Source: Ruegeria sp. YS9 (GTDB taxonomy: Bacteria; Pseudomonadota; Alphaproteobacteria; Rhodobacterales; Rhodobacteraceae). From it: a stretch of DNA of 64,000 nucleotides. Numbering within the stretch: the stretch's first letter is position 1; each line of letters starts with the position of its first letter. The notes beneath the pieces are model-generated. The model was not told where the DNA came from, made no database searches, and was given only the letters and a program-made list of their open reading frames with translations. The translations under genes and the position numbers were made by a program. The stretch is taken from assembly GCF_024628725.1 (NCBI RefSeq), contig NZ_CP102410.1, positions 682,001 through 746,000 on the forward strand, written 5' to 3'. Shown here in pieces: positions 2,317-50,677 of this stretch.

Positions 2317-2347
2317 AATGTATCCAAAATACAAAATCTAAAGTCAA
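2317..2347 (-). promoter_or_regulatory. Putative promoter with TGTATCCAA-type operator upstream of the peptide-binding protein
   Basis: The roughly 300-bp gap 2221-2518 holds no gene. At 2319-2333 lies TGTATCCAAAATACA, with 5-bp inverted arms around a 5-bp centre. On the minus strand a TTGACT -35-like box (2342-2347) sits just upstream, so a bound protein would cover the promoter. The 14-mer AATGTATCCAAAAT (2317-2330) is identical to one before the semialdehyde dehydrogenase gene at 50659-50672 (opposite strand). The rest of the gap shows nothing further. Confidence 0.5.
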
Positions 2348-2518
2348 CAGTGTCTTTCTGCGGATGTCTCTTACAACCGTTTCTGCCTTTGCACCCTGAT
2401 TTCAGGGTCTCATTCTCATCTTCGCCGCGAAAACGATACGACGCCCCGAAACGCTCTGCCGCGCACTCAGACCTTTCTGTTCATGGGTGCGGATTGCATG
2501 CTCTCATGGCCTGTACCC

Positions 2519-4576
2519 TCACGTCTTGTCCGTATGCGTGACCGCACGCCAATCCCGTGAGGGAGGGTTGGTCAAAAGTTTCGTTGCGCGCAACTTCATG
2601 ACCACGGACACAGGATCCCCGCCCCGCATTTTGTCCGCGGCTTCAAACGCAGCTATCGCCTGCTCGAACCGGCCGGAACGATAATGCGCAAGACCTTGTT
2701 CGTATGTCTCGATCCAATCAAATGATCCCTCAAAACTGTCGACCATCGCAATCAGCTCATAGACCACCAGTTCCTCGGTCCGGCCAAAGACCGCAAGCGT
2801 GTCCAGCTCTCGCACGACAATTGCGTCGGCGGCTTCGCGCCGGGTCTCGGGGCCGATCAGAATGCGCGTGCCATACTCCTTGTTGGCCCCCTCCAATCGG
2901 CTGGCCACATTCACGACGTCGCCGATTGCCGTATAGTTCAACCGCTGCTCTGACCCAATGTTGCCAACCAGAGCTTCCCCACTGTTCAACCCGATCCTGA
3001 CACGCAGGGAATTTCCGGCCTCGTCCTCGATGCCCGCATCTTCCACGGTCGCGACAAGATCCAGTGCCGCGCGGCAGGCATTCTCGGCATGGAGCGCATC
3101 CTTGCGCGGTGCCCCCCAGATCGCCATGACCGCGTCACCCATGAATTTGTCGATCGTCCCGTCATGGCGCGCGACGGCTGCTGCGGCCGCAGAGAAAAAA
3201 GGCTCCATCAACTGGATGATCTTGGGGCCCAGTTTTTCCGACAACCCGGTGAATCCGGTCACATCGCAAAACAACACGGAGACGTGTTTTATGTCACCGC
3301 CCGGCTGTGTCTTGATACCCTCGGCGACCAGCATCTTCACAAGATCGGTCGGCACGTATTTTCGGAACGCGGACAACCCTGCGGCCATGCTGGCAGTGGC
3401 TGCTGACAGATTGGCCAGCTCGGACAGGTTGGAAGGCCTGCGTGAAATGTGTTCGACATCAAAGCGTTCGATTTTGCTCAGGTCTTCTGCGATGCGCGCC
3501 AATGGGTTGGCCACAATTCTACGGATCAACCAGATCGCCAGAGCGGTCGAGACGATCACGACCCCAATCAGGATATAGATCAGGTCTATCAAGGTTGCAT
3601 TGATACCCGACAAGAAGGCCGATTCCGGAATGACCGTAGCGACGCGCCACCCGTAAAAACCCAAAGGCGTCAGGGCCACCGCATAAGGAACGCCATCGAT
3701 CACCACGCGTTTCGTCGAGTTGCCAGAAGTTTTGCCATCCGGGTCGCCCAACAGTTTTTCCCCCGAGATCTTGGCAACCTCGTACAGCTCACCTTCGCCC
3801 ATGCGCGCCGGTGTAACTTCATCCGCTTTTGCGTCGGGAACAGCAATTACTTTGCCATCGGCATCCAGAATGAAGGCGGCTCCGAATTCACCGGGCTCGA
3901 GCGTCGCCAGAAAGCGTGACAAACGGTCGGTTTCGATTGCGACCGCAAGAACACCCTGCCGTGCCCGGTTGACATCGATCGGCCCCGCAAATGCGTATAC
4001 GGTCTTGTCACTGCCCGGAAGATCGCGTGCTTCGATCCATCCCATCGAGTTCAGAGACATAAAATTGTTGAACCAGGCATGATCGCGAGGATCATAGGAG
4101 GTCGGAACAAAGTTCCTTTCTTCGAACTGAATATCCCCGGGTATGAAAATGTATCGATCGGTCCGCAGGTTCCGGTCGCGGATGTTCTTGTCGATCTCCA
4201 TCATCTCAAGCCCGCTGTCGCCCAAACGGTGCGACGCGAAAAAATTGCCGTCCGGCCAACCGAAGAAAATCCAGGAAATATTCGGCTGCGCCTGCAACTG
4301 GGACAGAAAAACGAACTCTCGCTTATCGGCCTGCCGTGTTGCGATGACATTCTGTACAAAGATCGTGCGCACCGCCGACCATGCGGCTTCGGCGGATCTG
4401 AGAGTTGCCCCGACTTCGATGCGGACCGCGTTTGCAATCTGGCTGTTGATCTCAGCGGCAAGCATGCGGCTGTTGTCACGCGCGGTCGTCCACCACAGCG
4501 AATGAACAACAAAGGTCGACACGCCGATGGATACGGCGACCAGCATGGATACAGCAATGCCGACACTGAACCGCAT
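2519..4576 (-). CDS. Membrane-bound class III adenylate/guanylate cyclase with periplasmic sensor domain
   Basis: About 685 residues. The N-terminus has one membrane segment (about residues 5-28), followed by a periplasmic region of roughly 300 residues resembling a Cache-type sensor, a second membrane helix (around LIDLIYILIGVVIVSTALAI), a HAMP-like linker and a C-terminal class III cyclase domain. The catalytic domain keeps the first metal Asp in FCDVTGF, the second in KFMGDAVMAIWG, and NVASRLEG with the transition-state Asn and Arg. The Lys in KFMGD and the Asp in IGDVVNVASRL suit ATP, so cAMP is the likely product. The ATG at 4576 is chosen because it starts right before the first membrane helix; its ribosome site is weak and a TTG at 4636 is possible. 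The input signal is unknown. Confidence 0.88.
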   Translation of the reverse strand: MRFSVGIAVSMLVAVSIGVSTFVVHSLWWTTARDNSRMLAAEINSQIANAVRIEVGATLRSAEAAWSAVRTIFVQNVIATRQADKREFVFLSQLQAQPNISWIFFGWPDGNFFASHRLGDSGLEMMEIDKNIRDRNLRTDRYIFIPGDIQFEERNFVPTSYDPRDHAWFNNFMSLNSMGWIEARDLPGSDKTVYAFAGPIDVNRARQGVLAVAIETDRLSRFLATLEPGEFGAAFILDADGKVIAVPDAKADEVTPARMGEGELYEVAKISGEKLLGDPDGKTSGNSTKRVVIDGVPYAVALTPLGFYGWRVATVIPESAFLSGINATLIDLIYILIGVVIVSTALAIWLIRRIVANPLARIAEDLSKIERFDVEHISRRPSNLSELANLSAATASMAAGLSAFRKYVPTDLVKMLVAEGIKTQPGGDIKHVSVLFCDVTGFTGLSEKLGPKIIQLMEPFFSAAAAAVARHDGTIDKFMGDAVMAIWGAPRKDALHAENACRAALDLVATVEDAGIEDEAGNSLRVRIGLNSGEALVGNIGSEQRLNYTAIGDVVNVASRLEGANKEYGTRILIGPETRREAADAIVVRELDTLAVFGRTEELVVYELIAMVDSFEGSFDWIETYEQGLAHYRSGRFEQAIAAFEAADKMRGGDPVSVVMKLRATKLLTNPPSRDWRAVTHTDKT

Positions 4577-4761
4577 GAAAACCCCGAAAAGAATGTCCTG
4601 TACCACAGTATTCGGTTGAGATCGCAAGAAGAGCAAAGCTTAGTTTGCTTCAACCCCGAAAAATCACGCAACTGTTAAGCACATGTGTATGCCGCGACAG
4701 AAATCCCCAGCACCTGGTCACTTGCCAATGCCCAGCGGACAGACCTTGCCCGTGGCGGAAA

Positions 4762-6738: not shown

Positions 6739-7126
6739 GGTGGTGGTTCTTTGTATCGGCCAGGTGATAGGCGCTGTGCGGAATTGCGATCAGCGGATCA
6801 TCCAAGGGTAAAGACAGCCCCATACCGGTTGCCATACCCGTTGTATAGACGGGAAAACGGGCATTTTCGCCGAAAAGCTTCCCGCAACGGAACACCCTGA
6901 CAGGTCAGACCCTGACGGCAACCTCCAGGGCCGGGCCGCATCAAACCTGGGTCGGCGCGGGAACAAAATTCACCATTTTGCCGGCAGATACCTGCCTTTG
7001 AACGTCGGAGACCCGCCCCGGACACGCACAATCGCGCCGATCATTTCGATGACGTGGCCGTCGTTGATGCGACATGGGTCAAACCAGAGCCCGAGCGGGT
7101 TCGTTCCTGATCTTGTTGACCCAATC
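6739..7126. other. 388-bp gap with no recognisable gene
   Basis: Neither strand has a recognisable protein. Short open frames exist on the minus strand (for example 6970-7161 overlapping the end of the next gene), but they lack a convincing ribosome site and match no family I recognise. The part next to 6738 should carry the helicase promoter, and the part next to 7127 the 3' end of the mdeB transcript. Confidence 0.5.
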
Positions 7127-9508: not shown

Positions 9509-9522
9509 GGCGGTCTCCGGAT

Positions 9523-10722: not shown

Positions 10723-10807
10723 TGCAAGCTCCTGTTTCAAGCTGACGCCAGTTTACGCCTTTACTTTGGGCTTTTGCTTGCAAATAGTACCAAGAGCGCG
10801 ATCCATA

Positions 10808-10824
10808 TTGGCAGATTCTGCCAA
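10808..10824 (+). promoter_or_regulatory. Perfect 17-bp palindrome, probable MdeR operator
   Basis: TTGGCAGATTCTGCCAA has 8-bp arms around a single base. It ends 13 bp before the mdeR start codon, in the 115-bp region between the divergent mdeA and mdeR genes. Lrp/AsnC proteins bind such dyads and often control both the neighbouring operon and themselves. Confidence 0.6.
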
Positions 10825-10837
10825 GGTTGAGGTTGAA

Positions 10838-11290: not shown

Positions 11291-11354
11291 TGGAACGCGC
11301 CCGGCCAATCTGCGAACTCAGGTTGAGGTGCATGTTCAACGGGCGCTGGGATCA

Positions 11355-11387: not shown

Positions 11388-11418
11388 GCTGACCTGCCGA
11401 GTTCAATAGGCACCAAGC

Positions 11419-13449
11419 CTAGTAGGCGACCATCGTCAACAGCTCGTATTCCGCAACCATTTCATCATCCTGCTGGGTCAGGGTGACATGCCAGCGGACT
11501 TCGCCGTATTCTTCGTTCCGCTTGGTCTTGGCCTTGACCGTCAACCGCACCTTGATGGTGTCTCCCGCCTCGACGGGCTTCATGAATCGCAACCCGTCAA
11601 GACCCGTGTTTGCCAGAACCGGGCCTTCGTTGGGTTCAACAAACAATCCGGCTGCAAATGACAAAAGCAGGTACCCATGGGCCACACGGCCCGGGAAGAA
11701 CGGGTTCCGTTCCGCCGCTGCCTGATCCATATGCGCGTAGAACGTATCGCCGGTGAAATTGGCAAAGTGTTCGATGTCTTCCATCGTGATTGTACGGGGC
11801 GCCGTGTGGAGGGTCTCGCCAATCGCCAGGTCGTGGAACCGGCGCGTGAACGGATGGGCCGGCCCTTCGACCTCGGTCGCGCCGGGAACCCATTTGTTCC
11901 CGATTGCGGTCAGCAGATCAGGCGATCCCTGAATGGCTGTTCTCTGCATGTAATGCTTGACGCCACGCACGCCGCCCATCTCTTCGCCGCCACCAGCGCG
12001 TCCCGGTCCGCCGTGAACCATATGCGGCAGCGGAGAGCCGTGGCCGGTGGATTCCTTCATCGAGTCGCGATTGTTGAAGTACATGCGCCCATGATACGCC
12101 CCTGCCCCCAGGGCAACGTGCCGTGCCACATCGGCGTCACGGGTTATGACCGATGCCACCAGCGACCCCTGTCCGCGATTTGCCAGTTCGATCGCATGGT
12201 CGAGATCGCGATAGCCCATCACAGTGCTGACAGGGCCAAAAGCCTCGGTGTCGTGGACACGCCGGGCCGCATCCGGATTGGCACAATGGTACAACATCGG
12301 CGGCAGGAACGCGCCTTTCTCGGCATCCGCCCCATCAACCACAAAATCGTCAGGGTTGCCGAAAACGCGTTCAGCTTCCTGCCCGATGATTGCCGCCTTT
12401 TCCAGAACATCGCGTTTCTGACCGTTCGAAACCAACGCGCCCATGCGTGTGGTTTCCAGCCTAGGGTCGCCGATGACCGTTTTGGCCAGCCTCGCGGACA
12501 GGGCTTCGATCACCGCCTGCACCAGAGGCTCTGGGGCCATGATCCGGCGGATTGCGGTACATTTCTGCCCAGCCTTCGTGGTCATCTCGCGCTGGACTTC
12601 CTTGACGAAAAGGTCGAATTCCGGCGTTCCGGGCTCGGCATCAGGGCCCAGTATCGAGCAGTTCAGACTGTCCTGCTCGGCCACGAAACGAACTGAATTC
12701 TCCAGGATCACCGGGTTGGAACGCAGTTTTGAGGCCGTGTCAGCAGATCCGGTGAAGCTGACCACGTCCTGCATGGTCAGACGGTCCAGCATATCACCCA
12801 GACCACCCGAAACCAGCTGCAACGCGCCCGCAGGCAAAATGCCGGAGTCCAGCATCAGCCGGACGCATAGTTCGGTGACGTAGCACGAGTTCGTTGCCGG
12901 CTTTACGATGGCCGGAACGCCCGCCAGAAGGGTTGGAGCCAGCTTTTCCAGCATCCCCCAGACAGGAAAGTTGAACGCATTGATGTGAACCGCCACACCG
13001 TGCAACGGGGTGCAGATGTGCTGCCCCAGGAAGGTGCCGTTGCGGGACAGCTGCTCGACCTCACCGTCCAGGTAGACATGTCCGTCCGGCATCTCGCGCC
13101 GACCTTTCGAAGCGAAGACGAACATCGTGCCGATGCCGCCGTCAATGTCGATCAAGTGGTCGGACTGGGTGGCACCCGTGCTGAAAGACAGGTCATACAT
13201 TGCCTGTTTGTGCTGACCCAAATGAATGGACAACGCCTTGAGCATCTTGGCCCGCTCATGAAACGTCATCTTCCGCAACGCCGGCCCGCCGACATCGCGC
13301 GCATAGTCCAGCATCCCCTGCACATCCAACGCGCTATTGCCGGCCGAGGCGATTACCTCGCCGGTGACTGCGCTTGCAATATTGCGGGCACCCGCACCGG
13401 GCGAAACCCATTCACCGGCCGCGAAGCTGGAAATCTGTTGGATTGTCAT
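11419..13449 (-). CDS. paaZ: Bifunctional oxepin-CoA hydrolase / 3-oxo-5,6-dehydrosuberyl-CoA semialdehyde dehydrogenase
   Basis: A 676-residue fusion that opens the oxepin-CoA ring and oxidises the resulting aldehyde in aerobic phenylacetate breakdown. Residues 1 to about 520 are an aldehyde dehydrogenase with catalytic Cys297 (AGQKCTAIRR) and Glu258 (FVAEQDSLNC). Residues about 540-676 are a MaoC-like hydratase with the hot-dog acid FTGDTFYAHMD and PFFPGRVAHGYL. Length matches E. coli PaaZ (681). It has its own promoter region of 119 bp carrying a TetR-type operator also found between the FadJ-type gene and paaG. The epoxidase and isomerase steps that make its substrate are supplied by paaG here and by paaABCDE elsewhere. 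Confidence 0.95.
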   Translation of the reverse strand: MTIQQISSFAAGEWVSPGAGARNIASAVTGEVIASAGNSALDVQGMLDYARDVGGPALRKMTFHERAKMLKALSIHLGQHKQAMYDLSFSTGATQSDHLIDIDGGIGTMFVFASKGRREMPDGHVYLDGEVEQLSRNGTFLGQHICTPLHGVAVHINAFNFPVWGMLEKLAPTLLAGVPAIVKPATNSCYVTELCVRLMLDSGILPAGALQLVSGGLGDMLDRLTMQDVVSFTGSADTASKLRSNPVILENSVRFVAEQDSLNCSILGPDAEPGTPEFDLFVKEVQREMTTKAGQKCTAIRRIMAPEPLVQAVIEALSARLAKTVIGDPRLETTRMGALVSNGQKRDVLEKAAIIGQEAERVFGNPDDFVVDGADAEKGAFLPPMLYHCANPDAARRVHDTEAFGPVSTVMGYRDLDHAIELANRGQGSLVASVITRDADVARHVALGAGAYHGRMYFNNRDSMKESTGHGSPLPHMVHGGPGRAGGGEEMGGVRGVKHYMQRTAIQGSPDLLTAIGNKWVPGATEVEGPAHPFTRRFHDLAIGETLHTAPRTITMEDIEHFANFTGDTFYAHMDQAAAERNPFFPGRVAHGYLLLSFAAGLFVEPNEGPVLANTGLDGLRFMKPVEAGDTIKVRLTVKAKTKRNEEYGEVRWHVTLTQQDDEMVAEYELLTMVAY

Positions 13450-13513
13450 GAGCGTCTCCTCATCTGTTGTGTGATCTTCGCGCAGCCGTATGCCCGTCTC
13501 ACGAAACCATAAT

Positions 13514-13535
13514 ATAAACCGTACGGTCGGTCAAT
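13514..13535 (-). promoter_or_regulatory. TetR (PaaR)-type operator upstream of paaZ
   Basis: A 22-bp imperfect palindrome centred on ACCGTACGGT, 65 bp before the paaZ start. Read on the minus strand, it matches the site at 19836-19857 at 19 of 22 positions. It has the GGTC/GACC-rich halves common for TetR-family regulators of CoA-ester catabolism. The likely binder is the TetR gene at 22448. Confidence 0.65.
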
Positions 13536-13568
13536 AAATTGGCGAATTGGCAACTCGAACCGTACATC

Positions 13569-14756
13569 TCAGACTTGCGCTGGCAGTCGCGCGAAACCCC
13601 GAAACCGAATGCGTCCGCCCCGTTCAGCACCGTCTGTGATGCGATAGGTCGGGAATCGCGCCAGAAACCGTCCGACGGCCACGCGACCCTCCATACGCGC
13701 CAGGGTCAGGCCAACGCAGGTGTGGGGGCCTCCGGCAAACGCATGATGCTTGTTGGGACGTCGATCCAATACAACCTCATCAGGTTGTTCAAACTGCCGC
13801 GGATCGCGATTCGCGGCGCCGATGCACAGGTGAACGTCTGTACCTGCCGGAATGGTCTGACCATGGAACGTCACATCTTCGGTGGTCAGACGATTGCCAA
13901 ACTGATTTGGGCTTTCCAGCCGCAGAAACTCGTCCACTGCCGTGTTGATCAGATCCGGATTGGCCAGCAGTTCGGCCCGTTTGTCGCGGTGCCGTTCCAA
14001 AAGTTCCAATGCGTTGCCGATCAGGTTGGTGGTGGTCTCGTGCCCTGCATTCAGAATGAAAATGCAGTTCTGGTACAGCTCGACCTCGGTCAGACCACCA
14101 TCGGTGTCATCCTGCATCAACCGTGTCAGGACATCCGTCGCAGGATCTCCGGGGTTGGCCCGGCGATCTTCGATGACATGCCGAAGATAGTCCTTGAAAT
14201 CAGATACCGAACGGTTGCCCCACTCTTCCTGCTCGGGCGTCAACTGAGGCTCCAAAGCGCCCAGTATGGCCAGAGACCAATCCCGCAAAGGCCCGCGCTC
14301 TGATCGGGGAATGCCAAGCAGGTTGCCGATGATCTCGATCGGGATGGCACCGGCGAAATCCTCGATCAACTCTACCGAGCCCTTGGCCTGCATCTCGTCC
14401 AGCAGCCCATCGACAAGTTGAATCAGGCCCGGTTCCATCTGCGCCAGCGCCCGTGGGTTCATCGCGCCAACCATGACCTTGCGGACGCGGGTATGCAGGG
14501 GCGGATCGTTGAACACAAGGCTGGTGGTATGGTGTTCGTAAAGCGGGCTGTCGATACCGTATTTGGGGCCGAAAACCGCCTTTTTGTCCGATATGAAACG
14601 CTCCGTATCCCGGTACACCAGGTCCAGGTCGTCGTACCGCGACAGGATCACCGACCCGTCGGGCTGCCAGCAGACGGGCGTGTCTTCGCGCAACACGGCG
14701 TAGGTTGGATAGGGATCCGCATGAAACCCGTCCGGAAGCGCAGTCAGAGAGAACAT
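13569..14756 (-). CDS. Cytochrome P450 coupled to a TRAP transporter
   Basis: A soluble 395-residue bacterial P450. The I-helix oxygen-binding motif is AGHETT (about residues 237-242), the ExxR pair is Glu276/Arg279 (DEFLRLESP) and the haem loop is FAGGPHTCVGLTLARME with ligand Cys347. The start at 14756 overlaps the TRAP large-subunit stop as TGATG, so it is translationally coupled; further upstream codons would lie inside dctM. No ferredoxin or ferredoxin reductase is near, so redox partners must come from elsewhere. Context suggests hydroxylation of an acid brought in by the TRAP system and passed to beta-oxidation-like enzymes. The substrate cannot be read from the sequence. Confidence 0.9.
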   Translation of the reverse strand: MFSLTALPDGFHADPYPTYAVLREDTPVCWQPDGSVILSRYDDLDLVYRDTERFISDKKAVFGPKYGIDSPLYEHHTTSLVFNDPPLHTRVRKVMVGAMNPRALAQMEPGLIQLVDGLLDEMQAKGSVELIEDFAGAIPIEIIGNLLGIPRSERGPLRDWSLAILGALEPQLTPEQEEWGNRSVSDFKDYLRHVIEDRRANPGDPATDVLTRLMQDDTDGGLTEVELYQNCIFILNAGHETTTNLIGNALELLERHRDKRAELLANPDLINTAVDEFLRLESPNQFGNRLTTEDVTFHGQTIPAGTDVHLCIGAANRDPRQFEQPDEVVLDRRPNKHHAFAGGPHTCVGLTLARMEGRVAVGRFLARFPTYRITDGAERGGRIRFRGFARLPAQV

Positions 14757-36034: not shown

Positions 36035-36039
36035 CCCCC

Positions 36040-39773: not shown

Positions 39774-39786
39774 ACAGGAGGCACCA

Positions 39787-41390: not shown

Positions 41391-41405
41391 TGGATGTTGT
41401 ATCCA
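41391..41405 (+). promoter_or_regulatory. Operator TGGAT-N5-ATCCA upstream of the hydroxyproline operon
   Basis: TGGATGTTGTATCCA is a perfect 5-bp dyad with a 5-bp centre, 45 bp before the first gene. The same architecture occurs at 50663-50677. FCD-type GntR proteins use comparable TTGTATNCAA-like sites; the local GntR gene is at 49957. Confidence 0.65.
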
Positions 41406-41450
41406 ATATCCGTTACTCGTGGCCACATCTTTTGATTCAGGGAGGATCAC

Positions 41451-42251
41451 ATGCTCAAGAAACTCGTCGCTTTGGCGGCCCTCACCACGTTCACAACAGG
41501 TCCTGCGATGGCGGACACGCTCGACGATGTCGTGGATCGCGGCACTCTTCGCTGTGGCGTTGTTCTGGACTTTCCGCCGATCGGGTATCGCGACGCCAAC
41601 AACGAACCGGCGGGATTTGACGTGGAATACTGCAATGATCTGGCTGCGGCGCTTGAAGTTGAGGCGGAAATCCTGCCGTTGACCTGGGCCGAGCGCCTGC
41701 CGGTCATCGTAACCGGGCGCGCAGATGTCGTGTTCGGCGCGACCTCGGACAGCCTTGAACGGGCGCGGACCGTGGGCTTTACCATTCCTTATGCGATCTA
41801 CTATGCGCAGGGCGTCGTGAACGCGGACAGCGGGATCGAAACCTTCGAAGACATCCGCGGCAAACGCGTCGCCGCCGCGATTGGCACCGTGCCGGAACAG
41901 GAATGGCTGAAGATTGCCGCCGAATGGGGTGAGGAAAGCAATTATCAGGGCTATCAGTCGGAAAACGAGGTGTTTCTGGCGGTCGCGCAGGGCAAGGCCG
42001 ATATCGGCATCACCACCAACACCGCCGTTCTGCCGATCACCCAGCAATATGAAACCGTGCTGGCCGGTCCGCGTATGCCCTGGACCACCGACTACACCTC
42101 GGTCGTGGGCAAAAGACAGGACGTCACCTGGCTGAACTTCCTGAACCTGTTTGTCACGCATCAGGTGCGTTCGGGCCGGTATCAGGAACTGTGGGGCAAA
42201 TATGTCGGAGGCGAAGCACCCGAGCTGCGCATCCCCGGCGTGATGTACTGA
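41451..42251 (+). CDS. Amino-acid ABC transporter substrate-binding protein (SBP family 3)
   Basis: A 266-residue periplasmic protein with a signal peptide (MLKKLVALAALTTFTTGPAMA) and the family-3 opening LDDVVDRGTLRCGVVLDFPPIGYRDAN written in parts as DRGTLRCGV and PAGFDVEYCNDLAAALEVE. It has a GRADVVFGATSDSLERA loop typical of polar amino-acid binders. GGGAGGATCAC precedes the ATG. It heads the hydroxyproline operon, so hydroxyproline or a related imino acid is the likely ligand. Confidence 0.9.
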   Translation: MLKKLVALAALTTFTTGPAMADTLDDVVDRGTLRCGVVLDFPPIGYRDANNEPAGFDVEYCNDLAAALEVEAEILPLTWAERLPVIVTGRADVVFGATSDSLERARTVGFTIPYAIYYAQGVVNADSGIETFEDIRGKRVAAAIGTVPEQEWLKIAAEWGEESNYQGYQSENEVFLAVAQGKADIGITTNTAVLPITQQYETVLAGPRMPWTTDYTSVVGKRQDVTWLNFLNLFVTHQVRSGRYQELWGKYVGGEAPELRIPGVMY

Positions 42252-42320
42252 TTTCACCCCCCAGTGCTCTTTCGTCGGGTTTCGGCCTGGCGAAAGAGCC
42301 GGTCAATTCGGAAAAAACCT

Positions 42321-42983
42321 GTGTTCGATTACAACTTCCACTGGCGACCGGTCATGAAAAGCCTGCCGGACTTGCTTGAGGCATCACTGCTGACCTTGCA
42401 AGTCGCGGTTCTGGCGATGATCCTGGGCATCATCATCGGCCTGTGTCTTGCGCTGACGCGGCTGCACCTGAAGGGGCCGCTGTACTGGTTCGCCTCAGCC
42501 TGGGTTGAACTGGCCCGAAACACGCCCGCCCTGTTTCAGCTGTTCTTTTTCGGCTTCGGGCTTGGCGCGTTCGGCCTGCACCTGTCGCCTTACTTCATCG
42601 TGCTGGTGGGTTTGACCTTCAATTGCGCCGGTTATCTGGCCGAAAACTTTCGCGGAGGTTTTCAGGCCGTCCCCGAGACGCAGTTGCGGGCCTCTCGTTC
42701 CCTGGGCATGACCGCGTGGCAGGCTTACACACGCGTGGTGATCCCGCAGGTGTTTCGTATCGTCTATCACCCGATCACCAATCAGATGGTCTGGGCCGTG
42801 CTCATGTCCTCGCTGGGCATGCTGGTCGGCTTCCGGGAACTGTCAGGTGAAACGCAGTTCTTTGCCTCGCGCACCTTCCGCATCTTTGAATATTTCGCCG
42901 TCACAGCGGTCATCTACTACGTGATCGTCAAAATCATTCTCGGAGCCTCACGCCTGCTGGCGACCCGGCTCTTTCGCTACTGA
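42321..42983 (+). CDS. Amino-acid ABC transporter permease (HisM/GltJ type), first subunit
   Basis: A 220-residue inner-membrane permease with about five helices and the ABC-permease EAA loop (RASRSLGMTAWQAYTRVVIP). A GTG start at 42321 is preferred because it gives the family start FDYNFHW, and a longer frame would begin 57 bp upstream without a good ribosome site. It pairs with the next permease, as usual for importers of polar amino acids. Confidence 0.87.
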   Translation: MFDYNFHWRPVMKSLPDLLEASLLTLQVAVLAMILGIIIGLCLALTRLHLKGPLYWFASAWVELARNTPALFQLFFFGFGLGAFGLHLSPYFIVLVGLTFNCAGYLAENFRGGFQAVPETQLRASRSLGMTAWQAYTRVVIPQVFRIVYHPITNQMVWAVLMSSLGMLVGFRELSGETQFFASRTFRIFEYFAVTAVIYYVIVKIILGASRLLATRLFRY

Positions 42984-42994
42984 AGGACGCTCGG

Positions 42995-43657
42995 ATGGAA
43001 CCCACTGTCAGCTTTTTCAGCGGCTTCACCATCAATGATCTGTGGTTTCTGGGCGAAGCGGCCCTGCGGACACTCTGGATTTCGGTTCTGTCGATATCCA
43101 TCGGAACACTTCTTGGCGTGGTATGCGGGTGGATCCTGTACGAGGGCAAGCTGGCCGCCGCCCTGACAGTGGCCCCGTTTCTGGATGTTTTCCGGTCCGT
43201 CCCGCTGATCATCCAACTGGTGCTGTTCTACAACTTTGCGCCCATTGTCGGGCTCAATCTGGACCCGTTCGCCTCGGGCATGGTGATCCTGTCGATCTAC
43301 ACGGCCGCTTTGGTTGCGAATGTCGCGCGCGGCGGGATCGAGGCCGTCGGCGCGCCGATGCGCCGTGCGGCACGCAGCCTGGGCATGACCTATTGGCAGG
43401 ACCTGCGCTATGTCGTCTTCCCAATCGGCGGACGCGCGGTGTTCCCCGCCTGGGTCGGTGTCGCACTGGGAGTGATGAAGGACAGCGCGTTGGTTTCGGT
43501 GCTGGGCTATGTCGAACTGCTCAAGGCCAGCCAGATCCTGATCACCCGCACGCAGGAACCTTTCCTGATCCTGACAATCGCGGGCGCGTTCTATTTCGCG
43601 CTCAGCTATCCGATTTCGCGCTATTCCGCGTCTCTTGAAAAAAGGTGGGCCCAATGA
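42995..43657 (+). CDS. Amino-acid ABC transporter permease, second subunit
   Basis: A 220-residue permease with the signature segment FRSVPLIIQLVLFYNFAPI, the EAA loop (RAARSLGMTYWQDLRYVVFP) and about five membrane helices. It starts 11 bp after the first permease and its stop overlaps the ATPase start by 4 bp, so the three are coupled. Confidence 0.9.
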   Translation: MEPTVSFFSGFTINDLWFLGEAALRTLWISVLSISIGTLLGVVCGWILYEGKLAAALTVAPFLDVFRSVPLIIQLVLFYNFAPIVGLNLDPFASGMVILSIYTAALVANVARGGIEAVGAPMRRAARSLGMTYWQDLRYVVFPIGGRAVFPAWVGVALGVMKDSALVSVLGYVELLKASQILITRTQEPFLILTIAGAFYFALSYPISRYSASLEKRWAQ

Positions 43658-44376
43658 TCGAAATTCGCGACCTGCACAAGTATTTCGGCGCGCTGCATGT
43701 GCTGAAAGGCATCAATCTGGATGTGCAGAAAGGAGAAGTCCTGTCGGTGATCGGCGCATCGGGCTCCGGCAAATCGACCCTGCTGTATTGCATCAACGGG
43801 CTGGAGCCGATCCAGCAAGGCTCGGTCAGGGTCGATGGCACCGATGTTCATGCCAAAGGCACCGACATCAACAAGCTGCGCACGAAGCTGGGGATGGTAT
43901 TTCAGCAATGGAACAGCTTTCCCCATCTGACAGCGCTGGAAAACGTCGCACTCGCCCCCAAGATCGTCAAGGGACTGTCAAAATCAGAAGCCCGCGATAT
44001 CGCCGCCCGCCAACTGACCCATGTTGGCCTGGGCGAAAAGCTGGGCGTCTACCCCTCGGCCCTTTCGGGTGGCCAGCAACAGCGTCTGGCCATCGCCCGC
44101 GCGCTGGCGATGGAACCGGAATACATGCTGTTTGATGAGGCGACGTCAGCGCTGGACCCCGAACTGGTGGGCGAGGTTCTCGACACGATGCGCCTTTTGG
44201 CCGAAGAAGGGATGACCATGATTTGTGTCACGCACGAGATGGGTTTCGCACGCGATGTGTCGGACCGGGTTGCTTATTTCCATCAGGGCATGATGGAAGA
44301 GATCGGCCCGCCCGGGCAGATATTCGGTGATGCGCAATCCGAAAACACCCGTAAATTCCTGGCCAACGTGCGCTGA
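43654..44376 (+). CDS. Amino-acid ABC transporter ATP-binding protein
   Basis: A 240-residue ATPase with Walker A GASGSGKST, Q-loop VFQQWNSFPHLT, signature [15 protein letters not shown] and Walker B MLFDEATSALDPE. The Q-loop and overall sequence fit the GlnQ/HisP class. The ATG at 43654 is chosen over an upstream GTG because it gives the standard start MIEIRDLHKYFG and a 4-bp overlap with the permease. Confidence 0.93.
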   Translation: MIEIRDLHKYFGALHVLKGINLDVQKGEVLSVIGASGSGKSTLLYCINGLEPIQQGSVRVDGTDVHAKGTDINKLRTKLGMVFQQWNSFPHLTALENVALAPKIVKGLSKSEARDIAARQLTHVGLGEKLGVYPSALSGGQQQRLAIARALAMEPEYMLFDEATSALDPELVGEVLDTMRLLAEEGMTMICVTHEMGFARDVSDRVAYFHQGMMEEIGPPGQIFGDAQSENTRKFLANVR

Positions 44377-44415
44377 GTGCACCGGCCCCCTGAAACAACG
44401 AGGAAGATCACCTTC

Positions 44416-45375
44416 ATGTCCAAGAATATCTTCACCGGCACCATGCCAGCCCTGATGACCCCCTGCAAAACCGACCGGACACCGGATTTCGATGCTCTGG
44501 TCAAAAAGGGCAAGGAAATGATCCAGGCAGGCATGTCGGCCGTGGTGTATTGCGGTTCGATGGGCGACTGGCCGTTGCTGTCGGATGCCGAACGCATGCA
44601 AGGTGTCGAACGCCTGATCGAGGCAGGCCTGCCCGTCGTCGTCGGCACCGGTGCGATAAACTCGAAATCTGCCGTGGCGCTGGCTGCACATGCGCAAAAG
44701 GTCGGAGCGGCAGGGCTTATGGTCATCCCACGTGTGCTGTCGCGCGGATCGTCCATCCCGGCACAGCGCAACCACTTCAAGGCAATCCTGTCAGCCGCGC
44801 CGGATATCCCGGCCATCATTTACAACAGCCCCGTTTACGGCTTCGCCACCCGCGCCGATTTGTTCCTGGAATTGCGTGCAGATCATCCGAACCTGGTTGG
44901 GTTCAAGGAATTCGGCGGCAAAAGCGACCTGCGCTACGCCGCGGAACACATCACCTCGAAAGATGATCAGGTGACACTGATGGTTGGTGTGGATACCGAG
45001 GTTTACCATGGCTTCGTCAACTGCGGCGCTACCGGATCGATTACCGGTATTGGTACTGCCTTGCCCAAAGAGGCACTGCTGCTGGCCGCCCTGTGCCAGA
45101 AAGCGGCGGCGGGCCACGCCGAAGCGCGCCTGCGCGCGCGCGAGCTTGAAGAAGCCTTTGGCGTGCTGGCCAGCTTTGACGAAGGCACCGATCTGGTGCT
45201 GTATTACAAGCACCTTCTGGTCCTGAACGGTGAAGAGGAATACCGCTTGCACTTCAACGAAACCGACGAACTGACGGATGCCCAGCGCAACTATTGCGAA
45301 CAGCAATACAGACTGTTCCGCACATGGTTTGCCGACTGGTCCAGCCAGGGCGGAGTCATCGCTGAATGCATGTGA
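44416..45375 (+). CDS. DHDPS-family lyase, probable pyrroline-4-hydroxy-2-carboxylate deaminase
   Basis: A 319-residue TIM-barrel enzyme of the DapA/NAL family. The Schiff-base lysine is Lys164 (NLVGFKEFGG) and the conserved Tyr is in IIYNSPVYGF. In bacterial hydroxyproline breakdown a member of this family deaminates delta1-pyrroline-4-hydroxy-2-carboxylate to alpha-ketoglutarate semialdehyde; the genes before and after fit that role. The start at 44416 follows GAGGAAGATC. Its 3' end overlaps the epimerase gene by 10 bp. Confidence 0.82.
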   Translation: MSKNIFTGTMPALMTPCKTDRTPDFDALVKKGKEMIQAGMSAVVYCGSMGDWPLLSDAERMQGVERLIEAGLPVVVGTGAINSKSAVALAAHAQKVGAAGLMVIPRVLSRGSSIPAQRNHFKAILSAAPDIPAIIYNSPVYGFATRADLFLELRADHPNLVGFKEFGGKSDLRYAAEHITSKDDQVTLMVGVDTEVYHGFVNCGATGSITGIGTALPKEALLLAALCQKAAAGHAEARLRARELEEAFGVLASFDEGTDLVLYYKHLLVLNGEEEYRLHFNETDELTDAQRNYCEQQYRLFRTWFADWSSQGGVIAECM

Positions 45376-46298
45376 TCGACAGCCATACCGGAGGCATGCC
45401 CACGCGGGTCATCCTGAACGGCGGCCCCGATCTGGGGTCGGGCCCGCTGGCCGAGCGCGCACAACGTCTGGCCACCGAGCACAAGGCTTTCTACAAATCG
45501 GTCCTTCTGGAGCCGCGCGGCCAACCCGGCATGGTCGGGGCGCTTCTGGTCGCCCCGGAAACGTCTGGCTGCGAAACCGGCGTGATCTATTTCGATGCCG
45601 ACGCCGTTCTGGGCATGTGCGGTCACGGCACCATCGGCCTTGGGGTCACTCTGGCGCATCTGGGCCAGATCGGTCCGGGAACGCACGGGGTCGAAACGCC
45701 GGCCGGCGTCATCTCGGTTGAGCTGTTGGACGCCAATACGGTGCGCGTCACCAATATCGAAAGCCGCCGGGTCAGGGCTTCGGTGTCGGTTGAGGTCGAA
45801 GGCCATGGAAAAGTGACCGGTGATCTGGCCTATGGTGGTAACTGGTTCTTCATTGTCGATCCCAGTCCGATGGACGTGACGCCCGGCAACATCCGTGCCC
45901 TCACCGATCTGACCATTGCAATTCGCAAAGCCTGCACCGACCAGAATGTGCGTGGTGAAAACGGGGAACCGGTGGACCACGTGATCTTGCAGGGCAAATC
46001 CCCGGACAAAGACGTTCACAGCCGGAATTTCGTCCTGTGCCCGGACGATCAATATGACCGATCCCCGTGCGGGACAGGCAGTTCGGCGCGTCTGGCCTGT
46101 CTGGCGGCGGATGGGGTTCTGGCTCCGGGGGTTGAGATCGTGCAGGAAAGCGTGATCGGCAGTTCCTACCGGCTGAGCTATCAGCCCGGCCCCAATGGCG
46201 GCGTCATTCCAACCCTGACCGGGCAGGCGCATATCATGGCCGAGGGCACATTGATTTTCGCGCAAAACGATCCGTTCCGCGGCGGGATCCTTCTTTGA
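45366..46298 (+). CDS. 4-hydroxyproline 2-epimerase (proline racemase superfamily)
   Basis: A 310-residue proline-racemase-fold enzyme that turns trans-4-hydroxy-L-proline into cis-4-hydroxy-D-proline, the first catabolic step. Both acid/base cysteines are present: Cys85 (GMCGHGTIGLG) and Cys235 (RSPCGTGSSARLA), the Cys/Cys pair of true epimerases. The opening IDSHTGGMPTRVI is standard. It overlaps the deaminase gene and precedes the oxidase, giving the usual order of hydroxyproline operons. Confidence 0.9.
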   Translation: MHVIDSHTGGMPTRVILNGGPDLGSGPLAERAQRLATEHKAFYKSVLLEPRGQPGMVGALLVAPETSGCETGVIYFDADAVLGMCGHGTIGLGVTLAHLGQIGPGTHGVETPAGVISVELLDANTVRVTNIESRRVRASVSVEVEGHGKVTGDLAYGGNWFFIVDPSPMDVTPGNIRALTDLTIAIRKACTDQNVRGENGEPVDHVILQGKSPDKDVHSRNFVLCPDDQYDRSPCGTGSSARLACLAADGVLAPGVEIVQESVIGSSYRLSYQPGPNGGVIPTLTGQAHIMAEGTLIFAQNDPFRGGILL

Positions 46299-46364
46299 CA
46301 AAACCATCGGGGACTGGCGCAATCCGGCCCCCGGTACCGAACCACAGTTTGAAAAGATCTGGCC

Positions 46365-47615
46365 ATGCTGCAAGACAACCCGACGGATATTGTTGTGATC
46401 GGTGCCGGTATCATTGGGATCAGCACGGCACTGGAATTGCAAAAGCGCGGCAAACAGGTTCTGGTGCTGGATCGCGAAGGCGTAGGAGCCGGTGCCTCGA
46501 AAGGGAATGCCGGAGCTTTTGCCTTTACCGATATCGTGCCGTTGGCCACCCCCGGGATCATGCGCAAAGCTCCGAAATGGCTGTTTGATCCATTGGGTCC
46601 GCTTTCAATCCCCCCCTCTTACGCTTTGAACATCGCACCGTGGATGCTGCGGTTCTGGCGGGCCAGTTGGCAAGATCGCTATGCTGCGGCCTTGTCTGCA
46701 CAGGCTGCTTTGATGGATCACAGCCGCGCGGCGCTGGAACGCCAGATCGCGGATGTCGACGGCGAAGCGCTGATGCAACGCGAAGGCCAGTTGCAGTTGT
46801 TCGAAAGTGAAGGCGAATTCCGCGCCAGTCTGCCCACATGGGATATGCGCAAGGATCACGGCATCCCCTTTGATCTGCTGGACAGCCCCGACGCGATTGC
46901 GGACATCCAGCCCGGGCTTGACCGACGATTTACCCATGCGGGTTTTACGCCCACCTGGATGAACACGGTCGATCCGGCCAGCTGGGCAAGACATTTGGCC
47001 ACCCGGTTCACCGCCCGCGGCGGTCAGGTTGAAATCGCGGCAATCAACGCGCTCACACCGATGGATTCAGCCGTTCGCCTGACGACTTCGATCGGTGAAA
47101 TTGAAGCAAGACAGGTGATCGTGGCCGCCGGGGCCTGGTCTCACCAACTCGCGAAAACCTTGGGTGATCGCATCCCTCTGGAAACCGAGCGCGGATACAA
47201 CACCACCCTGCCCGAAGGGGCCTTTGACCTGCGCACCCATCTGACATTCGGGGGACATGGGTTCGTGGTGACTCGGATCAACGGCGGCGTGCGCATCGGA
47301 GGCGCGGTCGAGTTGGGCGGGCTGGAACTGCCACCCAATTACAAACGCGCCGACACGTTGCTGGCAAAGGCCGGTCGCTTCATGCCTGGCCTGAATTTGG
47401 AAGGCGGCACGCAATGGATGGGCTTCCGGCCGTCGCTTCCCGACAGTTTGCCGGTGATCGACCGCTCGGCCCGTGCGTCACAGGTGTTCTACGCCTTCGG
47501 ACATGGCCATCTGGGCTTGACGCAATCCGCAGGCACGGCGGAACTGGTCGCGGATCTGGTCACGAACGCCAAGCCCGCGCTCGACATGAAGCCTTACGCA
47601 TCCACACGCTTCTGA
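46365..47615 (+). CDS. FAD-dependent D-amino-acid (D-hydroxyproline) oxidase/dehydrogenase, DadA-like
   Basis: A 416-residue flavoprotein with the FAD-binding IVVIGAGIIGISTALELQKR at its N-terminus and the DadA-like C-terminal segment FYAFGHGHLGLTQSAGTAELV. It should oxidise cis-4-hydroxy-D-proline to the pyrroline that the DHDPS-family enzyme deaminates. It follows the epimerase after 66 bp with only a modest ribosome site, and precedes the enolase-superfamily gene by 15 bp. Confidence 0.87.
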   Translation: MLQDNPTDIVVIGAGIIGISTALELQKRGKQVLVLDREGVGAGASKGNAGAFAFTDIVPLATPGIMRKAPKWLFDPLGPLSIPPSYALNIAPWMLRFWRASWQDRYAAALSAQAALMDHSRAALERQIADVDGEALMQREGQLQLFESEGEFRASLPTWDMRKDHGIPFDLLDSPDAIADIQPGLDRRFTHAGFTPTWMNTVDPASWARHLATRFTARGGQVEIAAINALTPMDSAVRLTTSIGEIEARQVIVAAGAWSHQLAKTLGDRIPLETERGYNTTLPEGAFDLRTHLTFGGHGFVVTRINGGVRIGGAVELGGLELPPNYKRADTLLAKAGRFMPGLNLEGGTQWMGFRPSLPDSLPVIDRSARASQVFYAFGHGHLGLTQSAGTAELVADLVTNAKPALDMKPYASTRF

Positions 47616-47630
47616 TCAGGAGAACACCTC

Positions 47631-48734
47631 ATGAAAATCACCGCACTGAACGTATATCAGGTGGATCTTCCGCTGAAGGAAGGCCGCTACAGCTGGTCCA
47701 ATGGCAACTATGTCGAAGTCTTCGACAGCACCGTTCTCGAGATCATCACGGATGAAGGTCTGAAGGGGTATGCCGAATGCTGCCCGCTGGGATCGGCTTA
47801 TCTTCCGTCCTTCGCCCTTGGCGTCAGGGCCGGGCTGGCCGAATTGTCGCCACATCTGATCGGGCAGGATCCGCTGAATATCGGCCAGATCAATCGTACC
47901 ATGGATGCTGCCCTGCGTGGCCACCCCTATGCCAAGGCGCCTGTCGATATCGCCTGCTGGGATCTGCTGGGCAAGACGACCGGGCAACCCCTTTACACCC
48001 TGTTGGGCGGCGCGGCACAAAAGGACGTGGTGCTGTATCGCGCGATCAGCCAGGAAGCGCCGGACATCATGGCGCAAAAGATCGAAGGCTATGCGGCCGA
48101 AGGCTACACGAAGTTCCAACTCAAGGTGGGCGGTGAAGCCAATGACGACATCGACCGCATTCATGCCACCCGCGCAGTTCTGAAAAAGACCGACCTGCTG
48201 GTGGCAGATGCCAACACCGGCTGGACCCGGCACGAGGCCGCCCGTGTCGTGGGCGCGGTCTCGGGTCTGGATGTCTATGTGGAACAACCCTGTTTGACCT
48301 ATGAGGAATGCGTGTCGATCCGCCGCCGCACCGCGCTGCCCTTCGTGATGGATGAGGTCATCGACACGCCCAACACATTGGTCCGCGGCATCGCCGATGA
48401 CGCCATGGACGTGATCAATCTGAAAATCTCCAAGGTAGGAGGTTTGACCAAGGCAAAACTGATGCGGGATCTGTGCGTGGCGCACGGTATTCCAATGACC
48501 ATCGAGGACACATGGGGCGGCGACATCACCACAGCCACCATCGCCCATCTGGCACGGTCAACACCGTCCGAGTTCACGTTCTCGGCCACCGATTTCAATT
48601 CCTATGGTACCGTGGACATCGCCGAAGGCGCACCGAAGCGTGTCAATGGCCGGATGACCGCAGCAGATCGTCCCGGTCTGGGCGTGACACCGATCTTCGA
48701 CGCGCTGGGTGCTCCTGTCGCGCAGTACGGCTGA
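47631..48734 (+). CDS. Enolase-superfamily (mandelate racemase/muconate lactonizing) enzyme of imino-acid metabolism
   Basis: A 367-residue enolase-superfamily protein. The two catalytic lysines are Lys165 (KFQLKVGG) and Lys265 ([10 protein letters not shown]); metal ligands are Asp193 (VADANTGW), Glu218 (VEQPC) and Asp241 (VMDEVID). This two-lysine arrangement supports 1,1-proton transfer or syn-dehydration. Known members in hydroxyproline clusters of Rhodobacterales are hydroxyproline-betaine 2-epimerase (HpbD, same length) and cis-3-hydroxy-L-proline dehydratase. Either would fit here; sequence alone does not decide. It sits within the operon, so its substrate is probably another proline derivative. 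Confidence 0.82.
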
Positions 48735-48741
48735 GGTAAAC

Positions 48742-49767
48742 ATGCGCAGCAGCAAAACCATACATGTGATCTCGGCCCATGCCGAAGGTGAGGTTGGAGA
48801 TGTCATCGTCGGAGGCGTCGCCCCACCGCCGGGCGACACTCTCTGGGATCAGCGAAGCTTCATTGCGCAGGACCAGACACTGCGCAACTTTGTTCTCAAC
48901 GAGCCGCGCGGCGGTGTGTTCCGGCATGTCAACCTTCTGGTTCCGCCAAAACACCCCGAGGCGGACGCCGCCTGGATCATCATGGAACCCGAAGACACGC
49001 CGCCCATGTCGGGGTCTAACTCGATCTGTGTCTCAACCGTGTTGCTGGATGGCGGGATCATTCCGATGAAAGAGCCGGAAACCCATATGGTGCTCGAGGC
49101 ACCGGGCGGGCTGGTCCGGGTGCGTGCGGAATGCCGCGATGGCAAGGCGCGGCGCATCTTCGTCCAGAACCTGCCCAGCTTTGCCGACAAGCTGTCGGTC
49201 CCGCTCGAGGTATCCGGACTGGGCACGATCACGGTAGATACCGCTTATGGCGGCGACAGCTTCGTGGTCGTCGATGCGCAGACGCTTGGGTTTGCAATCG
49301 TCGATAATGAGGCCCGCGACATAGCCCGGTTGGGGGTAAAGATCACAAACGCCGCCAATGAACAGCTTGGGTTCTCTCATCCCGAGAACCCGGACTGGGA
49401 TCATATATCGTTCTGCGCCTTTTGCGGCCCGCTGAGCGAGACGGAAACCGGTCTAAGCGGCAAGTCCGCCGTGGCGATCCAGCCGGGTAAGGTTGACCGT
49501 TCACCAACGGGTACCGCGGTGTCTGCCCGCATGGCGCTGATGGCGGCCAAGGGGGTGATGAAACCCGGCCAGACCTTCGACGCGGTTTCGATCATCGGAT
49601 CACGATTTACCGGTCGGATCCTTGACACTGTGCAGATAGGTGGCCGCCCGGCAATCGTTCCTGAAATCAGCGGTCGCGGTTGGATCACCGGAATACATCA
49701 GCACATGCTGGACCCTGACGACCCGTGGCCCGGTGGGTATCGCCTGTCTGACACCTGGGGTGTTTGA
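48742..49767 (+). CDS. Proline racemase-superfamily protein with Ser/Thr in place of catalytic cysteines
   Basis: A 341-residue homologue of trans-3-hydroxy-L-proline dehydratase and hydroxyproline epimerase. The first acid/base position is Ser90 ([10 protein letters not shown]) and the second is Thr256 ([14 protein letters not shown]), so neither catalytic Cys is kept. Ser/Cys and Cys/Thr pairs are known in 3-hydroxyproline dehydratases; a Ser/Thr pair I cannot match to a characterised enzyme. The fold-defining segments ([19 protein letters not shown]) are intact and there is no sign of decay. The start at 48742 follows AGGTAAAC, 7 bp after the enolase-type gene. Possible roles are a dehydratase with altered chemistry or a new imino-acid lyase. 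Confidence 0.8.
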
Positions 49768-49793
49768 TGTCGGGAAACACATTATTCAGAGAC

Positions 49794-49852
49794 GGAAAAG
49801 TCTGAAGATACGCGGGCTGGTTACGGATTCATAAGCAGATTCAGGCTTTTCC
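49794..49852. repeat. Long inverted repeat after the hydroxyproline operon
   Basis: GGAAAAGTCTGAA (49794-49806) pairs with TTCAGGCTTTTCC (49840-49852) at 12 of 13 positions around a 33-nt loop. It lies 27 bp after the last operon gene. A further GGAAAAGTC copy is at 49900-49908. It may be a 3'-end structure of the operon mRNA. Confidence 0.5.
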
Positions 49853-49862
49853 AGATCTCGGG

Positions 49863-49884
49863 CATGGGTCGAACATGGGTCGAA
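49863..49884. repeat. Perfect 11-bp tandem repeat upstream of the GntR gene
   Basis: CATGGGTCGAA occurs twice back to back, ending 72 bp before the GntR start. Identical direct repeats in a promoter region can be activator half-sites one helical turn apart, or a recent duplication. Confidence 0.6.
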
Positions 49885-49923
49885 ATCCAAGTTCGGCTTG
49901 GAAAAGTCGATGATTACGGGTAA

Positions 49924-49937
49924 TTGTATCCAAAAAA
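49924..49937 (+). promoter_or_regulatory. TGTATCCAA half-site in the GntR gene's own promoter
   Basis: TTGTATCCAAAAAA lies 19 bp before the GntR start. It shares TGTATCCAA with the elements at 2319 and 41398 and, inverted, at 50662, but here only one half is well conserved. Weak autoregulation is plausible. Confidence 0.45.
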
Positions 49938-49956
49938 CCGTGGCGGGATATTGGAC

Positions 49957-50637
49957 ATGGCAGGGAAACGCGCGATCACGAAACAAAGCCTACCGGACGT
50001 TATCGCAAATGATCTGCGTGAACGTATCCTGAGCGGCGAACTTGCCGAAGGTGAGACGATCCGGCAGGAAGCTCTGGCCGAGGAATATGATGTCTCGCGC
50101 ATGCCGATCCGCGAGGCGCTGAAGCGCCTGAATGCCGAAGGTCTGGTGCAATGGGCCAACAATCGCGGCGGCTCGGTGACCAAGCATTCCCTCGACGAAA
50201 TCGGTGAAATCTTCGATCTTCGCATCCTGATCGAAGTGGATCTGTTTCGCCGGGCCATCCCGAATATGGGCCCAAGGGAATTTGCGCGTTGCGACGAGAT
50301 TCTCAGGCAGATGGAAGCGTCATATGACGAAAATGACGTCGGCAAGTGGGGGATATTGAACTATCAATATCACTCGGCGCTTTATGCGGCGTCACAGCGG
50401 AAGCTGACCAACGAATTGCTGGACCGCGTCAACCTGCAATCGGATCGTTATGTAAGGATGCACCTGAGCGTGATGAAACAGCGCGAACCCGCAAAAAAGG
50501 AACATCGTGATCTGTTGCGGCTGGCGCAGGAAGGCAATGTGGACAAAGCCTGCGAGGTCTTGGCCCAGCATATTCGCCGGACCAAGGAACAGCTTCTGGA
50601 AATGATCGCCTCGAAGCGCGGGACAGACGAACCCTAG
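49957..50637 (+). CDS. GntR-family regulator, FCD subfamily
   Basis: A 226-residue regulator. It has an N-terminal winged helix (VIANDLRERILSGELAEGET, then LAEEYDVSRMPIREALKRLN) and an all-helical FCD effector domain with metal/ligand histidines near YQYHSALY and LAQHIRRTKE. The ATG at 49957 is preferred to a TTG at 49924. It lies between the hydroxyproline operon and the semialdehyde dehydrogenase gene, and the repeated TGGAT-N5-ATCCA sites flank that set. It is the likely repressor of hydroxyproline use; the effector is inferred to be hydroxyproline or a pathway intermediate. Confidence 0.88.
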   Translation: MAGKRAITKQSLPDVIANDLRERILSGELAEGETIRQEALAEEYDVSRMPIREALKRLNAEGLVQWANNRGGSVTKHSLDEIGEIFDLRILIEVDLFRRAIPNMGPREFARCDEILRQMEASYDENDVGKWGILNYQYHSALYAASQRKLTNELLDRVNLQSDRYVRMHLSVMKQREPAKKEHRDLLRLAQEGNVDKACEVLAQHIRRTKEQLLEMIASKRGTDEP

Positions 50638-50658
50638 GGCGGTCTTGCATGTCCTGCC

Positions 50659-50677
50659 ATTTTGGATACATTATCCA
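50659..50677 (+). promoter_or_regulatory. Operator TGGAT-N5-ATCCA upstream of the semialdehyde dehydrogenase
   Basis: TGGATACATTATCCA (50663-50677) is a perfect dyad with the same 5-5-5 layout as the site at 41391. Read on the other strand it contains AATGTATCCAAAAT, identical to 2317-2330. It lies 22 bp after the GntR stop and 32 bp before the dehydrogenase start. Confidence 0.65.

Follow-up and report, generated by a model that had tools for sequence, protein, structure and literature searches.

A 64,000-nucleotide stretch of the Ruegeria sp. YS9 genome (contig NZ_CP102410.1, positions 682,001 to 746,000; G000:C2:682001-746000), hereafter the window, was analysed for a short operator-like element shared by a hydroxyproline (hyp) cluster and a distant dipeptide-uptake gene, dppA. 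The genome has a size of 4.3 Mb in six contigs. The hyp cluster includes a gene for a GntR-family regulator (gntR), and the features of the window were as follows:

1..568, minus strand: M24 Xaa-Pro peptidase (creatinase/prolidase fold), truncated at the left window end (L119:5474-6568).
637..2220, minus strand: dppA-like dipeptide-binding protein, first gene of dppA-M24-dppB-dppC-dppD-dppF.
2318..2327, minus strand: putative operator of the dppA promoter, TTGGATACAT on the minus strand, inside TTTTGTATTTTGGATACATT, overlapping a putative -10.
2342..2347, minus strand: putative dppA -35 box, reading TTGACT here but TTGACA in the 26 remaining close orthologues; its spacing to GATACA (2324-2319) is 17 bp.
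41397..41406, plus strand: putative operator of the hydroxyproline transport/catabolic operon, TTGTATCCAA; 15-bp dyad at 41391-41405.
41451..44376, plus strand: hydroxyproline-type ATP-binding cassette (ABC) transporter with binding protein, two permeases and an ATPase 73% identical to that of the Sinorhizobium meliloti hyp locus.
44377..47615, plus strand: DapA-family deaminase (hypD-like), 4-hydroxyproline epimerase and D-hydroxyproline dehydrogenase-like DadA (hypO-like).
47631..49767, plus strand: cis-3-hydroxy-L-proline dehydratase and trans-3-hydroxy-L-proline dehydratase.
49924..49933, plus strand: putative operator of gntR, TTGTATCCAA.
49957..50637, plus strand: FCD-domain GntR regulator, proposed reader of all four operators.
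50662..50671, plus strand: putative operator of the semialdehyde dehydrogenase gene, TTGGATACAT; 15-bp dyad at 50663-50677.
50710..52224, plus strand: aldehyde dehydrogenase, probably acting on alpha-ketoglutaric semialdehyde; it shares 71% identity with the enzyme of the S. meliloti hyp locus.

The window contains exactly four copies of the 9-mer TTGGATACA, each just upstream of a likely start, those of dppA (ATG 2220, minus strand), the ABC binding protein (ATG 41451), gntR (ATG 49957) and the aldehyde dehydrogenase (ATG 50710), and the spacing from 9-mer to start codon was 23-98 bp at all four sites. Genome-wide there were 24 copies, 20 of them in the remaining 4.23 Mb, and the rest of the genome predicted 0.30 copies for 64 kb (Poisson P = 0.0003 for four). 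All but one of the 20 non-window copies (19/20) lie inside open frames of at least 100 amino acids, the one at C1:1748284 lying in no such frame; for the copy at C2:417052, which is among the 19, the frame may merely be the extended start of another GntR gene. The initial annotation had described the recurring element as a 15-bp TGGAT-N5-ATCCA dyad before the transporter operon and the dehydrogenase gene, and the dyad was indeed located at 41391-41405 and 50663-50677, with the half-site TGTATCCAA before gntR at 49925-49933. A genome scan placed the perfect dyad at just five places in 4.3 Mb, two of them inside the window, and the 14-mer AATGTATCCAAAAT (2317-2330) was confirmed as the reverse complement of 50659-50672. 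The four sites are therefore real and their exact 9-mer is above chance, but the unit had to be redrawn. Because relatives hold a 10-bp core more strictly than the outer arm, the dyad was rejected as the operator: the conserved unit is the FadR-type 10-bp palindrome TTGKATMCAA with A/T flanks, and this palindrome is often extended to the full dyad. The match between the 14-mers at 2317 and 50659 was rejected as evidence by itself, since 26 such inverted 14-mer pairs were present in the window. TTGKATMCAA fits a palindrome of the TKGT/ACMA type in which the usual A of ACMA is often C, and it has the spacing of the HypR group, for which the available text of Suvorova et al. 2015 (PMC4494728) gives 2 nt between GT and AC. 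The longest TTG-start frames of gntR and the dehydrogenase gene open inside their own operators (49924 and 50662), and the ATGs at 49957 and 50710 are likelier starts.

Conservation was followed in up to 300 bp upstream of each gene by searching for TTGKATMCAA with at most one mismatch, a pattern contained in about 5% of random 400-bp stretches at 46% guanine-cytosine content. From 96 confirmed relatives of the regulator, 80 loci (56-95% identity) were retained. The operator preceded the hyp binding-protein gene (hypSBP) at 25/25 loci, the semialdehyde dehydrogenase gene at 37/41, gntR at 44/80 and dapA at 39/68, the last of these genes being often internal to the hyp operon. Sites were thus found both at the hyp genes and at the regulator's own gene, as expected of a HypR-type regulon. 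A matrix was built from 73 distinct exact sites at gntR, the semialdehyde dehydrogenase gene and the hyp operon in other genomes, of which some are close relatives; dppA sites and any sequence of the window genome were kept out of it. These sites had been chosen by the core, which makes agreement in the core partly built in; agreement in the A/T flanks is not. With this matrix the four window sites took ranks 1-4 with 25.8, 23.9, 20.7 and 10.4 bits, and the next window match scored 6.3 bits.

At dppA, TTGGATACA starts 104-111 bp before the start in 27/27 genus genomes with a dppA of at least 91% identity, and in all 27 close orthologues the operator covers the putative -10 GATACA behind the TTGACA box (TTGACT in the window) at 17-bp spacing. 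A simple sigma-70 promoter scan did not call the dppA promoter. In the alignment of dppA upstream regions the bases upstream of the promoter were unconserved and the downstream ones moderately conserved. The 20-bp dppA operator was invariant in 20/20 columns among the five genomes with only a hyp-seated GntR, while the upstream columns had diverged; the leader downstream of the operator was also well conserved, so part of this invariance may reflect promoter constraint.

The genus comparison covered 54 Ruegeria genomes, with GntR called present at E≤1e-55; its co-occurrence P values ignore kinship. GntR was found in 45/54 genomes, all 45 with a hydroxyproline epimerase, and its gene was seated at the hyp genes in 20, beside dppA-M24-dppBCDF in 20, at both places in two and elsewhere in three. 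The dpp-adjacent regulator of 22 genus genomes is a 69-74% relative of the hyp-seated one, and the helix-turn-helix stretch SRMPIREALKRL did not differ among the nine genus GntRs that were aligned, four hyp-seated and five dpp-seated. Where GntR was only dpp-seated, the hyp operon carried the exact core in 20/20 genomes; it is separated from dpp by tens to hundreds of kilobases or lies on a different contig. In the reverse situation, with GntR only hyp-seated and a close but distant dppA (G000, G057, G058, G062 and G068), dppA carried the 9-mer in 5/5 genomes. The dpp-seated genomes form one clade and are not independent cases, and G000, G057 and G058 are near-copies (98-100% alike), which leaves about three lineages among these five. 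What was observed directly is the presence of the sites, how well they are conserved and that they co-vary with gntR. The exact core was found at the hyp promoter in 44/45 genomes with GntR and with one mismatch in the remaining one, G048 (45/45 at one mismatch or less); among the five genomes with hyp genes and no GntR it was found upstream of dapA in none (0/5), and in one at one mismatch or less, as G004 has TTCTATCCAA at the aligned place, one change from the operator (1/5). The hyp operon of G004 shares the gene order of dpp-seat genomes. The difference between genomes with and without GntR gave Fisher P values of 3e-6 for the exact core and 2e-5 at one mismatch or less. A dppA of at least 91% identity was present in 27/45 genomes with GntR and 0/9 without it (P = 0.002), and no dppA at E≤1e-150 was found in those nine. 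In a quick GntR tree the dpp-seated GntRs together with those of G023 and G067 formed one clade (Shimodaira-Hasegawa-like approximate likelihood ratio test, SH-aLRT, 98), and the hyp and dpp seats required one change.

Two of the three genomes with gntR elsewhere, G023 and G067, have it beside M24 and the remains or the former place of a dpp operon. Both operons are decayed: in G023 (L314) remnants of dppA and dppB accompany full-length matches of M24 and gntR, and in G067 (L313) only M24 and gntR were found, M24 beside gntR. At L037:16391-17142 a second GntR gene, 34% identical, is divergent from the hyp binding-protein gene with an operator between them. At L273 (G057; about 12650-14193) the dehydrogenase match begins late (13165); a frameshift or an error in the assembly may account for this.

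Taken together, the comparison within the genus supports a predicted regulon of the hyp genes, gntR, the semialdehyde dehydrogenase gene and the distant dpp/M24 operon, and it is quite likely that the FCD-GntR at 49957-50637 is the local regulator of both hydroxyproline use and the dpp/M24 operon through TTGKATMCAA operators. We infer that GntR would bind its own promoter, that of the hyp transport/catabolic operon, that of the semialdehyde dehydrogenase gene and the dppA promoter about 48 kb away. It would most likely act as a repressor, the dppA operator covering the putative -10, and in the presence of hydroxyproline or a product of it GntR would release all four promoters. This expectation is drawn from the operator position and from the studied HypR proteins of S. 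meliloti and Streptomyces. Uptake and cleavage of proline/hydroxyproline peptides, perhaps of collagen type, would then be induced at the same time as catabolism of the free imino acid.

Physical links between the two halves were found outside the genus. In Halocynthiibacter (L026 and L361; dppA 88-89%) the hyp cluster contains the dpp operon, transcribed divergently from the hyp ABC operon, and each of the two is preceded by an operator. Within Ruegeria, G048 (L311) shows the same divergent arrangement at its hyp cluster with a 79% dppA containing two stops; a one-mismatch operator lies about 40 bp before its hyp binding-protein match, and none was recognised for dppA. At six further loci (L020, L021, L022, L023, L025 and L055; five Shimia and one other Rhodobacteraceae) an M24 gene without dpp is divergent from the hyp ABC operon. 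The starts of these M24 genes were 76-77% identical over 46-59 residues, and the extended one (L364:3212-4306) was 76% identical over its full length; no dppB match appeared at the L364 locus, and no dppA at E≤1e-150 was found in the five of these six genomes that were tested. The operator was present 44 bp before M24 with at most one mismatch at 4/6 loci; at the remaining two, sites with two mismatches lie at 42 and 51 bp.

Several observations weigh against control of dppA by this GntR. The dppA site is the lowest-scoring of the four (10.4 bits), and the dppA orthologues of 78-79% identity in G010, G048 and G049 lack the motif though GntR is present. Among 28 other-genus genomes with dppA (75-85%), the motif was found upstream exactly in three and with one mismatch in one, and the prediction set beforehand that a dppA motif implies this GntR failed in 4/4 of them at E≤1e-40. 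One of the other 24 genomes (G343) has GntR, on a contig that starts 17 bases before its dppA match; for G230 the scan covered 240 bp upstream of dppA. Three of the four motif-positive genomes (G198, G298 and G208) have a GntR of 33-37% identity beside dpp, two of these in the same tail-to-tail slot after dppF as gntR in dpp-seated genomes, and at the five motif-negative dpp loci examined no adjoining GntR was found beyond a weak partial match in L356. Of the 30 GntR-bearing genomes outside the genus, 8 have dppA (61-88%, E≤1e-150), and the dppA motif is absent in 7 of these 8, the sole carrier being Halocynthiibacter. In a quick dppA tree Halocynthiibacter was placed next to the Ruegeria copies (94) and G198 and G298 just outside (98). 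Since other genera have the dppA motif without this GntR and this GntR without the dppA motif, the dpp operator, as an FCD-GntR site, probably predates its link to the hyp-type GntR, and on the sequences compared that link is specific to the Halocynthiibacter-Ruegeria lineage. The proposal of the initial annotation that one local GntR serves both hydroxyproline breakdown and DppA/M24 was therefore upheld, as a predicted link, within the genus but not as a general rule.

The same distant GntRs beside dpp raise the question of whether a genuine dppA operator could be occupied by a different FCD-GntR encoded in this genome, such as C2:417137 or C1:2730309; the sequence shared among the sites would then reflect no more than a motif common to the FadR subfamily. 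That G198, G298 and G208 combine such a GntR with the same motif at dppA favours this, and a further point against the hyp GntR is that the C2:417137 GntR has TTGGATACAA just upstream. However, of the proteins in the window genome it is the hyp GntR that those dpp-encoded GntRs match best (E 9e-34 to 2e-37, against 2e-22 to 9e-28 for the runner-up), and the dpp-adjacent regulators of the genus are its close relatives, with an identical helix-turn-helix stretch in the five aligned, so that another reader is considered unlikely. Still less probable is that the dppA motif is a disused relic of a lost dpp-adjacent GntR. The slot after dppF, which holds gntR in dpp-seated relatives, has no such gene in G000, G058, G062 and G068, as a relic would predict, but all 20 operator columns stayed invariant in the five genomes without a dpp-adjacent GntR, leader conservation perhaps explaining part of this, and an exact operator is missing from the hyp operons of the five genomes without GntR. 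Hardly any weight can be given to chance clustering of an A/T-rich word: TTGKATMCAA with one mismatch is no commoner in the window than in shuffles (six matches against 4.5, itself a point against the regulon), and inverted 14-mer pairs are frequent, but the matrix ranks, the conservation across genomes and the co-variation with gntR already contradict it.

Another FCD-GntR gene of the window genome has TTGTATTCACTTGGATACAA just upstream of its likely start (G000:C2:417052-417061; L363:7053), where cross-talk is possible; the open frame divergent from this gene is presumably an AbrB-type membrane protein.

For the predicted regulon of GntR with hyp and dpp/M24 genes, we lean slightly towards a history in which the regulon stayed one and the regulator changed its seat. 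An ancestral hyp cluster that included dpp/M24, as in Halocynthiibacter, would have split in Ruegeria, and the single gntR would have stayed with either the hyp half (as in this genome) or the dpp half, both operator sets being kept and each half coming under a regulator encoded at the other. The M24 gene, not the transporter, would be the most persistent member of the peptide side, because it occurs without dpp but operator-bearing beside hyp genes in Shimia, and without dpp beside gntR in G067.

The epimerase reached 551.5 bits against NF052296 (4-hydroxyproline epimerase; cut-off 450) and, because the cis-3- and trans-3-hydroxyproline dehydratases both exceeded their curated cut-offs, the cluster probably deals with both 3- and 4-hydroxyproline. 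The aldehyde dehydrogenase (50710..52224) stayed below every curated equivalog cut-off. The regulator belongs to the FadR subfamily (FCD) of the GntR family, with PF00392 (N-terminal winged helix, 67 bits) and PF07729 (C-terminal FCD, 84 bits) both above the gathering score; its best named matches were from Ruegeria (98-99% in Ruegeria sp. THAF33 and AD91A), and the closest other protein of the window genome was only 29% identical. DppA matched PF00496 and had dipeptide-binding proteins as its nearest solved chains, and its 791 bits against the NCBIfam equivalog NF043070 were below the cut-off of 1005. The importer architecture was complete, with DppB and DppC (BPD_transp_1, OppC_N) and two ATPases with oligo_HPY tails. 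The M24 peptidase scored 207 bits with PF00557, and its best solved chains were named aminopeptidase P or Xaa-Pro peptidases; it reached neither the PepQ cut-off (NF040821; 174.8 bits, cut-off 630) nor the other curated Xaa-Pro cut-offs.

The hyp locus of S. meliloti and its HypR were reportedly described by White et al. in 2012. Seven window genes match this pSymB region at 47-77% identity, including the transporter, the DadA-type and aldehyde dehydrogenases and the trans-3-hydroxyproline dehydratase, whereas the epimerase is only 32% identical. HypR of S. meliloti was taken, by position, as the FCD-GntR beside the DapA-family gene, the record being unannotated. The window GntR was rejected as its orthologue: the two are 27.5% identical, and the best match of S. 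meliloti HypR in the window genome was another GntR (L153, 33%).

In the accessible text of Leyn et al. 2016 (PMC5343134), S. meliloti HypR is a negative regulator, and proline (di)peptidases and a proline di/tripeptide permease belong to the HypR regulon predicted for Proteobacteria in Alteromonadales and Aeromonas, joined in Alteromonadales by collagenases. The regulon proposed here resembles it in having a GntR-family local regulator of hydroxyproline genes, peptide-side genes and the same motif class (PMC5343134, PMC4494728). It differs from the regulons set out in that text in that the peptide arm is a Dpp-type ABC operon with M24, in Rhodobacteraceae, and in that gntR may sit at either half of a split regulon. 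HypR of Streptomyces coelicolor, in the available sections of PMC6608401, is a repressor that binds across the -10 of its own promoter; it is likewise a FadR-type GntR acting on hydroxyproline genes, and its regulon reaches a putative collagenase upstream. Unlike the window system, its operator is given there as CTNTGC(A/C)ATGTCAC, and its collagenase stands in place of the peptide importer and M24. No report on this link in Ruegeria or roseobacters was found in the open-access literature, subscription papers being mostly outside the scope of the search. The regulatory logic is already known. What appears new is the Dpp/M24 arm, the change of seat and a GntR that shares just 27.5% identity with HypR of S. 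meliloti.

Overall, the regulon would provide a likely physiological role, the use of hydroxyproline/proline peptides, for a Dpp-type transporter and an M24 peptidase that are otherwise generic by sequence. With the regulon split and its regulator gene moved, the genus would also serve as a natural experiment in how operators and their transcription factor are kept in step. Finally, the HypR-type link between hydroxyproline use and peptide uptake, which the accessible text of PMC5343134 predicts for gammaproteobacteria, would be extended to marine Rhodobacteraceae with different parts.

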